From a virus, in IMG/VR virus record IMGVR_UViG_3300042350_001609, positions 1 to 23,983 of that record: DNA of 23,983 nt; one strand, given 5' to 3'. Below, one piece after another: positions 1 to 1,817 of this stretch (within the stretch, counting starts at the first letter, position 1; each line of letters opens with the position of its first letter). Under the pieces are notes generated by a model. The model saw nothing but the letters and a program-made list of their open reading frames with translations. It had not been told where the DNA came from and searched no databases. The position numbers and the translations under genes were made by a program.

Positions 1-47
1 GCGCGCGCGAGCCATTCCCTGTCCCAGTCGTCGAGTTCAATCGCCAC
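1..47 (-). CDS. Partial small protein, N-terminus only
   Basis: A GTG at 47-45 opens a frame that runs off the left edge and begins VAIELDDWDREWLARA. It has a strong Shine-Dalgarno sequence, GGAGG, about six bases upstream (reading gcggaggtggaccGTG), and it overlaps the last codons of the methyltransferase by 11 bases, as is usual for coupled phage genes. Only about 15 residues are visible; they look amphipathic and acidic. I do not recognise the family. The start and its ribosome binding site are the real evidence. Confidence 0.55.
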   Translation of the reverse strand, partial: MAIELDDWDREWLAR

Positions 48-1443
48 GGTCCACCTCCGCGATCCGCTTGCCGATCCAGGCCATGCACGGCACGGCCATG
101 CTGTTTCCGAGCGCCTTGTAGCGCGGCCCGTCCGGTGCCTCGGGCGACTTGCGCCACGGTATGTTGGTGTAGTTGTCGGGGAAGCCCTGCAGCCGCTCGC
201 ACTCCACGGGCGTGAGGCGGCGGACTTGCATGGCGACCGCGTGGACAGCAGCGACCTGCTGCGTAACCTCGCTGCTCTGCGGGCTGCGGCTCGGGTCATT
301 GCTTGCCGTCAGCGCAGGCGCCACCGGCTGCGCGACCCGTGCGCCCTCGTAGCCGCCAGACTGGTGCGAGCGCAAGGTGCCAATCAGTTCCTCGGAGCAG
401 TTCTGCTCGCCGTCGATGCCATACGCCACCGGCTGCGCGACCGCCACCGTCGCAGCGCCGCCCTTAGACCCGCAGCCCATCGCGTGCGTCGTGCCGTCCT
501 CGCTGCTGATCGGGTCTTGCGTGGGGTGGAAGGCGACCGGCTGCGCCACAAACTGATCTTGCGCCGCCGCCAGCGTAAAGGCGCGTTCCTCGCTGCCGAG
601 GTAGCCCTTGCCCGCCTGCTTGCCGATGTTGGTGCTGCCGCGCGAGCCGTCCTCGCGCTCAACGCCGCCGCGGACTTTGAATACCTGCGCGACCATGTTG
701 TAGCACTCGTCGCCCGCCGGGCCGCCGCTGCCCTTCGACCACTTGCTGCTTACTGTGCCGGCGATGCGACCGCCATCAGGGCCACCTCCAACGCACTCGC
801 TCCACGCTAGTTCTTCGTGGTTGTTGCGGCTGATTCCAAAGCGCGCTGCAATTGTTCCGGCAACTGCTTCCCGCGCTTCCCGGCTCGGCGGAGAATCCCG
901 GCGCACGCTTTCGCGCTCAAAAAGAACCTGGGCGGCACGCTGCCAGTCTCCAAGATGTCCGACAACGAACACACGACGGCGGCGCTGGGCCACTCCGAAC
1001 CATTGAGCGTCCAGGACTCGGTAGGCCCACCCATACCCCAACTCCCCCAGCGCCCCGAGGAAGGTGCCAAAATCCCGTCCTCCGCCAGATGACAGGACGC
1101 CGGGGACATTTTCCCAGACAACCCATCTAGGCCGGTAACGTTGAGCGATTGCAAGGTACGTGAGCATGAGGTTTCCTCTGGGATCCTCAAGCCCTTTGCG
1201 GAGGCCCGCGACCGAGAAGCTTTGACAGGGGGTTCCTCCAACGAGAAGGTCAACTGTTTCATCGGGCCACTCCTGGAACTTGGTCATGTCGCCGAAGTTC
1301 GGGACAGACGGATAGTGATGCGCCAACACGGCGCGCGGAAACGGTTCGATTTCGCTGAACGCCACCGGCTGCCAGCCAAGCGGGTGCCAGGCGACGGATG
1401 CGGCTTCGATGCCGCTGCACACCGAGAGGTAGCGGAGGCTCAT
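37..1443 (-). CDS. DNA (cytosine-5-)-methyltransferase
   Basis: A 468-residue C5 DNA methyltransferase, which transfers a methyl group from S-adenosylmethionine to cytosine C5 in a specific DNA sequence; phages use such enzymes to evade host restriction. The motifs are in the standard order: motif I near the N-terminus (SVCSGIEAAS), motif IV GGTPCQSFS with catalytic Cys73, motif VI ENVPGV (Glu111), motif VIII QRRRR (153-157), motif IX RRLTPVECERLQGFP (about 408-422) and motif X ALGNSMAVP. The target-recognition region, about 185-400, is long and holds VAQPVA repeats at 299, 335 and 370. The start at 1443 is chosen over an upstream alternative because its ATG overlaps the preceding stop as ATGA and follows AGGGG. 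The target sequence cannot be read from the protein. The enzyme looks intact. Confidence 0.95.
   Translation of the reverse strand: MSLRYLSVCSGIEAASVAWHPLGWQPVAFSEIEPFPRAVLAHHYPSVPNFGDMTKFQEWPDETVDLLVGGTPCQSFSVAGLRKGLEDPRGNLMLTYLAIAQRYRPRWVVWENVPGVLSSGGGRDFGTFLGALGELGYGWAYRVLDAQWFGVAQRRRRVFVVGHLGDWQRAAQVLFERESVRRDSPPSREAREAVAGTIAARFGISRNNHEELAWSECVGGGPDGGRIAGTVSSKWSKGSGGPAGDECYNMVAQVFKVRGGVEREDGSRGSTNIGKQAGKGYLGSEERAFTLAAAQDQFVAQPVAFHPTQDPISSEDGTTHAMGCGSKGGAATVAVAQPVAYGIDGEQNCSEELIGTLRSHQSGGYEGARVAQPVAPALTASNDPSRSPQSSEVTQQVAAVHAVAMQVRRLTPVECERLQGFPDNYTNIPWRKSPEAPDGPRYKALGNSMAVPCMAWIGKRIAEVDRGD
319..549 (-). repeat. Degenerate repeat in methyltransferase target-recognition region
   Basis: The 19-mer CGCCACCGGCTGCGCGACC occurs exactly at 319-337 and 424-442, and a diverged copy lies near 532-549. 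The spacing is 105 then 108 bases (35 and 36 codons), so the repeats are in frame and encode the three VAQPVA motifs of the methyltransferase. Confidence 0.75.
807..1262 (-). CDS. Overlapping frame inside the methyltransferase gene, 151 aa
   Basis: This frame lies wholly inside the methyltransferase gene on the same strand, shifted by one base. Its ATG at 1262-1260 is preceded by AGGAG at 1274-1270 with a 7-base spacer, an ideal ribosome binding site. The 151-residue product starts MKQLTFSLEEPPVKAS and includes GKMSPASC, SLSDILETGSVPPRFFLS and ACAGILRRAGKRGKQLP. Its composition is balanced, unlike the Arg/Ala/Pro-rich shadow frames elsewhere in the window. From memory it resembles short proteins annotated in many phages with the same MKQLTFS start and LETGxVPxRxFLS-ACxGILRRA core, but no function is known to me. 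That likeness could be passive, because methyltransferase motifs IV-VIII constrain the DNA of this frame. Translation is therefore plausible but not shown. Confidence 0.5.
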   Translation of the reverse strand: MKQLTFSLEEPPVKASRSRASAKGLRIPEETSCSRTLQSLNVTGLDGLSGKMSPASCHLAEDGILAPSSGRWGSWGMGGPTESWTLNGSEWPSAAVVCSLSDILETGSVPPRFFLSAKACAGILRRAGKRGKQLPEQLQRALESAATTTKN

Positions 1444-1817
1444 GTCCGCCCCTGCTTGTGTACCCACACCTCTACTTTGGTGTCAGGATCTACGAAATTG
1501 AGTTCGGGGTTGCACCAGCAAGGCGAACCGTCCGTAACATGTTCGGTTGACAGCGCGGCAAGTTGCGCCTTTCGCAGCGCATCCTCGGCGGCGCGAAGGC
1601 GAACATAAGCCGCCTCTCGCCTGTTCCGGGCATCTTGCGCATCCAAAGCCATCTTAACGGCCGCCTGCTTGGCGGCTTCGCCGGTTCTTCGCTTAGACGC
1701 TTTGCGCGCGCGCCATGTAGCGTGCAGCGACAAGCGTGATTCGCTATATACCGCACGATGCCACTCTCTGCGCGCCGCTTTGCGCTCCGCTTTTAGTTCG
1801 GGAATCGTCTTGCTCAT
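1440..1817 (-). CDS. Small coiled-coil protein with C-terminal CWC motif
   Basis: A 125-residue protein of unknown function. The N-terminal two thirds are highly charged, Ala/Arg/Lys-rich and probably a long helix or coiled coil. The C-terminus has HVTDGSPCWCNPELNF followed by VEVWVHK. A CWCNP motif followed by a valine/histidine strand is common in small phage proteins, and the two cysteines could help bind metal. I chose ATG 1817 (MSKTIPELK) over a start 20 codons upstream because the longer start would run back through the terminator stem, while 1817 has GAGGGTGGAAGG just before it. Its stop overlaps the methyltransferase start as ATGA, so the two are probably translationally coupled. Confidence 0.75.
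   Translation of the reverse strand: MSKTIPELKAERKAARREWHRAVYSESRLSLHATWRARKASKRRTGEAAKQAAVKMALDAQDARNRREAAYVRLRAAEDALRKAQLAALSTEHVTDGSPCWCNPELNFVDPDTKVEVWVHKQGRT

Follow-up and report, generated by a model that had tools for sequence, protein, structure and literature searches.

A conserved gene nested in the +1 frame of phage C5-cytosine DNA methyltransferase genes, with a product that is a candidate small subunit of the methyltransferase

The C5-cytosine DNA methyltransferase (MTase) gene of a virus sequence of 23,983 bases, record IMGVR_UViG_3300042350_001609 (the whole stretch analysed, hereafter the window), contains, entirely within it and in its +1 frame, an open reading frame (ORF) of 151 codons, the counterparts of which in numerous phage MTase genes are depleted of stop codons beyond what the MTase itself explains and are conserved as protein sequences. 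We denote the host gene alpha and the nested ORF beta. Comparative analysis makes it nearly certain that beta is a real, translated overlapping gene; given such a gene, it appears fairly probable that its product is a subunit of the MTase, and the complete reading, namely a translated, overprinted gene with a product that acts in trans as the small subunit of a split C5-MTase, is on balance the one we favour. Under this scenario, beta would be translated from its own ATG with its own Shine-Dalgarno (SD) sequence to yield a product of about 150 residues, with a poorly conserved, probably disordered N-terminal tail followed by a conserved helical domain. This domain would be the counterpart of the L-DILE..V-KYxLS-K segment that lies between motif VIII and the target-recognition domain (TRD) in many canonical C5-MTases, and beta would bind alpha and thus supply, in trans, a segment that the phage alpha lacks; nesting of beta in alpha would cause both chains to be made together and inherited together. 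Translation of beta, binding to alpha and the need for beta in methylation are what we infer from the observations described here.

In the window, alpha occupies positions 37..1467 on the minus strand (476 amino acids from a GTG, with an ATG at 1443) and is readily recognized as a C5-MTase by its matches to Pfam PF00145 (DNA_methylase; E = 2e-52), TIGR00675 (E = 4e-52) and PHROG_116, and by the presence, on the same strand, of what we take to be motifs IV (1216-1239), VI (1099-1113), VIII (967-987), IX (178-222) and X (88-120). Beta (807..1262, minus strand) starts at the ATG at 1260-1262, with an SD-like AGGAG (1270..1274) exactly 7 bases 5' of it, and further upstream its frame is closed by an in-frame TGA (1284..1286) within the Asp-Met-Thr codons of alpha, both also on the minus strand. 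An earlier note on this sequence had described a same-strand, 151-codon ORF inside the MTase gene, with AGGAG 7 bases before the ATG, and the sequence bears this out. The conserved C-terminal domain of beta (819..968, minus strand; residues 99-148, SLSDILETGSVPPRFFLSAKACAGILRRAGKRGKQLPEQLQRALESAATT) overlaps the end of motif VIII of alpha and continues past it. In the AlphaFold model of beta, the first ~95 residues are of low confidence and are probably disordered, and confident helices span residues 100-106, 117-130 and 136-148, with a block mean predicted local distance difference test (pLDDT) score of 92-98 over residues 121-150. The one family match of the window beta is to PHROG_16143, named 'DNA methyltransferase' (139 positions), which covers residues 12-119 and so not the whole conserved domain. 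Since 53 of 104 +1 proteins match PHROG_16143, the PHROGs collection already clusters such products; the entry is named after the MTase and mentions no overlap.

Beta is widespread. A tblastn search with the 151-residue protein matched 127 phage records, most strongly over residues 80-147, and with the domain, matches were obtained in 142 records of phages and 533 of plasmids. At the first ten annotated loci examined (those of P1, of Vibrio, mycobacterial, Roseobacter, Pseudanabaena, Caulobacter, Enterobacter and Pseudomonas phages, and of two environmental phages), the match invariably fell in the +1 frame of an annotated MTase, the frame being open over 145-221 codons. Because selecting for the +1 frame was to be avoided, samples were drawn with N-terminal MTase queries in frame 0 that mostly precede the beta ORF. 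Of 80 window-type loci, 78 have the domain in +1 (the other two are truncated), as do 76 of 80 P1-type loci (one of the others has changed frame, two are truncated and one is without the domain); among the 80 mycobacteriophage-type loci, 20 have it, 52 lack it and 8 are truncated. A regular-expression search of L001-L411 for the domain motif found it 188 times in the +1 frame and not once in frame 0 of the phage-type alpha or in +2. Pectobacterium phage ZF40 and Flavobacterium phage FPSV-S27 were considered as cases of an in-frame domain and rejected; the in-frame alignment of ZF40 rests on motifs IX-X and not on the domain.

The earlier note also held that such ORFs are annotated in many phages; in the records examined, the ORF was rarely annotated. 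Among 120 listed phage rows, with overlapping records, 90 carried a methylase name, 20 were hypothetical proteins, 3 had no feature and 7 were unannotated; in the record of phage P1, dmt is the sole annotation at the beta locus; and in only one of the 19 regions opened was the +1 ORF itself annotated, as a hypothetical protein of Escherichia phage 813R1. In this P1-like phage (L436, 2264-2755), the MTase frame is broken. A search for copies outside MTase genes, which that note had proposed, covered phages, plasmids, genomes and viral contigs, and no intact free-standing beta was found among the loci with the frame checked within the matches listed (60 of 127 and 60 of 142 phage records, 60 of 533 plasmid records, 25 of 370 phage records and 80 of 491 genome matches). 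These being a part of the matches, a rare free-standing copy may exist. Wherever the frame was checked, the match belonged either to the +1 frame of an MTase gene or to an MTase that is broken, apart from one remnant, a bacterial genome (L428) in which a 77-codon +1 domain ORF is retained and the N-terminal part of the MTase is gone.

The evidence for selection on the +1 frame comes from a main set derived from the 411 loci, of which 83 that gave no match to motif VIII (some of them truncated contigs, others of the WPTP type discussed below) were dropped; 319 of the remaining 328 had enough sequence, and dereplication at 80% identity left 106 representatives. When synonymous codons of these genes were permuted, the +1 stops observed and expected were 286 and 260 upstream of the ORF, 71 and 300 in its first part, 1 and 75 in the domain, and 750 and 678 downstream; with a junction-aware permutation that respects the next base, the respective figures were 286 and 244, 71 and 230, 1 and 65, and 747 and 644. 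Thus, the frame is open beyond what the host gene explains. A stop inside the domain occurs in only 1 of the 319 genes. Scored with the domain profile, the +1 product of the real genes reached at least 81 bits (median, 117), compared with at most 61 bits for the permuted genes, and the real domain outscored all 20 permuted versions in each of the 106 genes. The synonymous constraint on alpha is restricted to the overlap: the identity of its fourfold-degenerate third bases is 0.30 upstream, rises through the ORF and reaches 0.81 in the domain, with 0.27 expected in both regions. Moreover, residue identity in the domain region is 0.62 for the +1 protein versus 0.50 for alpha and, around KACAGILRR, 0.78 versus 0.38; with the +1 residues more conserved than those of alpha, conservation of alpha cannot be the cause.

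Start signals are enriched as well. In the main set, 54 of the 106 genes (14.3 expected) have, in the start zone, an ATG preceded by an SD sequence of at least 4 bases, compared with 12 (6.8 expected) in a control zone, so that beta has its own start codon with a ribosome-binding site, a feature that is weaker in Firmicutes phages. MTases of the latter, an independent group drawn with the N-terminus of a Lactococcus phage enzyme (70 of 80 parsed, 35 representatives), differ in motif VIII (PQNRERVF) but share the +1 motif, SLSDILEENVDEKYFLS. The 35 representatives contain no +1 stop, with about 230 expected, over a zone that begins 105 codons before motif VIII and ends 30 codons past it; the edges of this zone are sharp, with stop counts near expectation outside it. 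Third-base identity ranges over 0.53-0.85 within the zone and 0.33-0.35 beyond it (0.31-0.32 expected there). Canonical bacterial C5-MTases served as the control (74 of 90 parsed; 3 of the phage type removed; 71 used), and in these the +1 frame is not depleted of stops, with 354 observed and 364.5 expected, even if two genes, L589 and L604, have none in the tested stretch.

What could the conserved domain be? Its sequence (SLSDILE..RYFLS) resembles the segment that follows motif VIII in canonical MTases and is missing from the phage alpha. This segment is found in frame in many canonical C5-MTases and in the +1 frame in phage MTases; some canonical enzymes carry, in frame after motif VIII, sequences such as LGSILEPHVDEKYTLTPKLWKY or VGDILENNSEVDPKYTISDRLLAGHKRRL. 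A profile of the domain, derived from ten sequences of phages (A2) other than those of Firmicutes, found the domain in the +1 frame of 35/35 Firmicutes genes. When the same profile was run against the 71 canonical MTases, 42 gave a hit, and in 22 of these the best place was 15-75 residues after motif VIII in frame, with 6.0 expected by chance; 20 column-permuted profiles placed 1-12 hits there, about 29 sequences giving any hit, and the mean of the ten best scores was 5.0 for the real profile and no greater than 0.8 for the permuted ones. In frame 0 of alpha, the profile found this place in 4 of 16 phage sequences with a hit (106 scanned; 2.7 expected by chance) and in 0 of 10 from Firmicutes phages (35 scanned; 1.5 expected). 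Hence beta would carry a segment that alpha lacks, the likeness being a statistical one at the level of the family. In a Foldseek search of a viral library with the beta model, an 81-residue uncharacterized protein of mycobacteriophage Thibault (BFVD G1FGG9) gave 41% identity (E = 5e-3); it looks like a member of the same family and may be a +1 product that has been annotated.

At three loci, the +1 ORF extends into motifs IX-X. In L339, a viral contig, alpha ends shortly past motif VIII, and the domain, a recognition region and motifs IX and X are all encoded by the +1 ORF that overlaps it; the Pfam DNA_methylase model aligns with alpha over positions 2-168 and with the +1 ORF over 184-323, the latter starting from residue 100, where the domain begins. 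In L446, from a Firmicutes phage, the elements follow one another in this order too, and the match to TIGR00675 is divided between two ORFs; in L278, a bacterial metagenome-assembled genome, sequences similar to motifs IX and X follow the domain in the +1 ORF. The alpha of L458 is interrupted, with the domain, IX and X encoded by a separate ORF further downstream. Altogether, 431 loci with the domain were classified by the location of motifs IX-X: alpha in 373, the ORF of the domain in 4 and a third ORF in 25 (15 of which share the frame of the domain); in 29 loci, 24 of them truncated, the motifs were not found. Since certain contigs recur across the locus sets, these numbers refer to loci rather than to independent phages. 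The third ORF is separate, overlapping or adjacent, and the 25 loci, which include L333-L338, L340, L344-L348, L003, L432 and L433, encode mostly MTases of the mycobacteriophage type and of freshwater phages. In the Omega-like mycobacteriophages, the MTase genes (L432, 1345-2868; L433, 1345-2772) are interrupted by an HNH endonuclease gene, and one Omega-like record remarks that the intron boundaries are undetermined.

Split C5-MTases and overlapping genes are both already known kinds. No report of a beta-type overlapping gene was found by title or abstract in the literature searched, which left subscription journals mostly outside. The small chain of M.EcoHK31I is reportedly read from another frame inside the gene of its large chain. 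According to passages of PMC3404938, the large chain of this two-polypeptide C5-MTase contains motifs I-VIII, X and the TRD, and the small chain motif IX; a passage of PMC3439449 terms the enzyme naturally split. The likeness to the present case lies in a large chain and a small chain that supplies, or in the case of beta would supply, the missing piece; the difference is that most of the alphas analysed here have motif IX and that the small protein of the window family carries the segment after motif VIII. M.AquI, as described in passages of PMC3404938, consists of a large chain, which has motifs I-VIII and some of the variable region, and a small chain, which has the remainder, including IX-X. 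To judge from this description, L339 and L446 are divided in the same manner, whereas in the window and most of its relatives IX-X belong to alpha, with the two reading frames overlapping by about 150 codons. Since the window beta contains neither motif IX nor motif X, both being in alpha, we do not file it as a member of the M.EcoHK31I or M.AquI kind; motifs IX-X do accompany the domain in L339, L446, L278 and the separate ORF of L458. In passages of PMC11855218, an out-of-frame HNH insertion in mycobacteriophage methylases (ShiLan) is described as mobile, with a disjunct distribution. It is similar to beta, as far as these passages go, in being an out-of-frame protein within a phage methylase gene; by contrast, beta shares its DNA with the catalytic core itself and occurs in almost all complete loci of the window and P1 types.

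A second family of overlaps comes from the 52 mycobacteriophage-type MTases without the domain (within L354-L411), with motif VIII mostly of the APHRRDRVW kind (APHxRxRVW), which have a +1 ORF of their own. Their +1 frame contains no stop between codons 45 and 150 past the PC motif, with about 115 expected, and third-base identity (n=49) is 0.40-0.58 in this region and 0.26 before it, with 0.26-0.27 expected within it. The +1 product contains WPTP-like motifs in 47 of 52 cases and a motif IX-like LMGFP (LNPxWVEWLMGFPxGWT) in 37, and a regular expression for canonical motif IX found none in frame 0 (0/52). This division, with LMGFP in +1 and no canonical IX in frame 0, is closer to M.EcoHK31I than that of the window family. 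It is conceivable, if somewhat short of probable, that the C5-MTase class common to phages from P1 to those of Lactococcus and mycobacteria consists of two proteins made from one stretch of DNA, with a small-domain segment moved to the +1 frame and supplied in trans, and that the sister WPTP class does likewise with its motif IX-like segment.

Several observations weigh against the proposed translation of beta or against its proposed role as a subunit. The window by itself proves nothing: with the synonymous codons of its alpha permuted, the 151 codons of beta stayed open in 8% of 3000 trials (P = 0.08), and a +1 open stretch at least as long as the observed 158 codons appeared in 61% of the permutations (GC 66%). 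The 106 representatives are not phylogenetically independent, the +2 frame is mildly depleted of stops in the domain region (173 versus 209 expected), and L319 carries a stop within the domain. In about half of the 106 genes, the start zone has no ATG combined with an SD sequence of 4 or more bases, and among the 35 genes of Firmicutes phages, SD sequences of 4 or more bases are not enriched (13 versus 12.1 expected), those of 5 or more being found in 9 versus 3.4 expected. In Pectobacterium phage ZF40 (L613, 1611-2645), a P1-type alpha is apparently intact and the +1 frame has decayed, with stops in the first part and a weak domain of 43 bits. As for the likeness to canonical enzymes, 29 of 71 gave no hit with the domain profile, and the profile-profile comparison between the domain and the canonical segment (probability 73%, E = 3e-5) used eight canonical rows picked for showing the motif. 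The window beta alone has no Pfam or NCBIfam match; a sequence search of solved structures had as its best result an unrelated one with E = 1.3, and a further search of this type yielded no match; and with the beta model Foldseek found no match in PDB at E <= 0.001, the best VIA result being Z = 3.4 with a root-mean-square deviation of 6.1 over 46 residues (the structure-related alignment, A4, comprised 79 of 104 candidate relatives and the window). Loci that join the domain and IX-X in one ORF are few (4/431), and these could be later frame changes. The Pfam match of the L446 +1 ORF begins at residue 311, after the domain, and neither Pfam nor NCBIfam recognizes the L278 ORF, which leaves L339 as the single case of a curated match that includes the domain; the AlphaFold model of the L339 beta is poor (pLDDT 59.5), and a Foldseek search with it yielded nothing at E <= 0.001, the match list being meaningless with such a model. 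Finally, at 373 of the 431 loci motifs IX and X are present in alpha itself, which could therefore act alone.

The last point is also an argument for the alternative that survives best, even if we consider it rather unlikely, namely that beta is a real, translated overlapping protein with a separate job, for example, inhibiting a restriction or defence enzyme of the host or regulating alpha, and that its domain merely resembles, or was once derived from, the MTase segment. In the same vein, five loci (L186, L253, L262, L274 and L329) combine an alpha broken by a frame change or a stop with an intact +1 domain, and ZF40 has kept alpha but not an intact +1 frame. However, the broken-alpha cases may be assembly errors; beta was not seen apart from a C5-MTase or its remains among the loci checked; the domain matches the segment that is missing from alpha and is continuous with motifs IX-X in L339, L446 and L278; and no PADLOC family matched beta in the three proteins tried. 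A programmed +1 ribosomal frameshift in alpha, which would fuse motifs I-VIII to the domain without any independent protein, seems quite improbable. There are natural frame changes nearby in L186, L253 and L329, L186 joins the N-terminal part of alpha and the domain in one frame, and the 25 loci with IX-X in a third ORF indicate that frames do change within the alpha gene. Nevertheless, the selected open frame starts about 80-105 codons before motif VIII, often at an ATG with an SD sequence, and a frameshift near motif VIII would free the upstream +1 codons, where the stops number 71 versus 300 expected.

The notion that beta is a passive shadow, kept open by conservation of MTase motifs IV-VIII, as the earlier note had cautioned, is very hard to sustain. 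GC-rich genes do have long shadow frames, and the window alone is compatible with this possibility, but at the level of the family it is refuted by the permutation nulls, the synonymous constraint, the higher conservation of the +1 protein than of alpha and the lack of any effect in canonical MTases; in addition, the +1 frame of ZF40 decays under an apparently intact alpha, so that it is not alpha that holds this frame open. The proposal of the same note that beta is a conserved out-of-frame partner of phage MTases, to which it assigned no function, is accordingly supported, stops being rare in homologs with an intact MTase. Constraint at the nucleotide level, such as an RNA structure or a regulatory site, would fit the high third-base identity and is hardly credible in view of the near absence of +1 stops, the enrichment of starts with SD sequences, the likeness to a protein segment of canonical MTases and the sharp edges of the stop-free zone.

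The finding adds a selected gene of about 150 codons to many phages and prophages, phage P1 included. The overlapping gene is widespread in phages of different phyla and can be tested directly in laboratory phages. If beta is indeed an MTase subunit, assays of phage MTases with an alpha that was recoded, or cloned regardless of the +1 frame, would falsely indicate inactivity, and the overlap would be a clean system for studying how one stretch of DNA holds two interlocking protein parts. Should the two-protein arrangement extend to the whole class as suggested above, overprinting of an enzyme by its own piece would be a recurrent design that annotation has overlooked.

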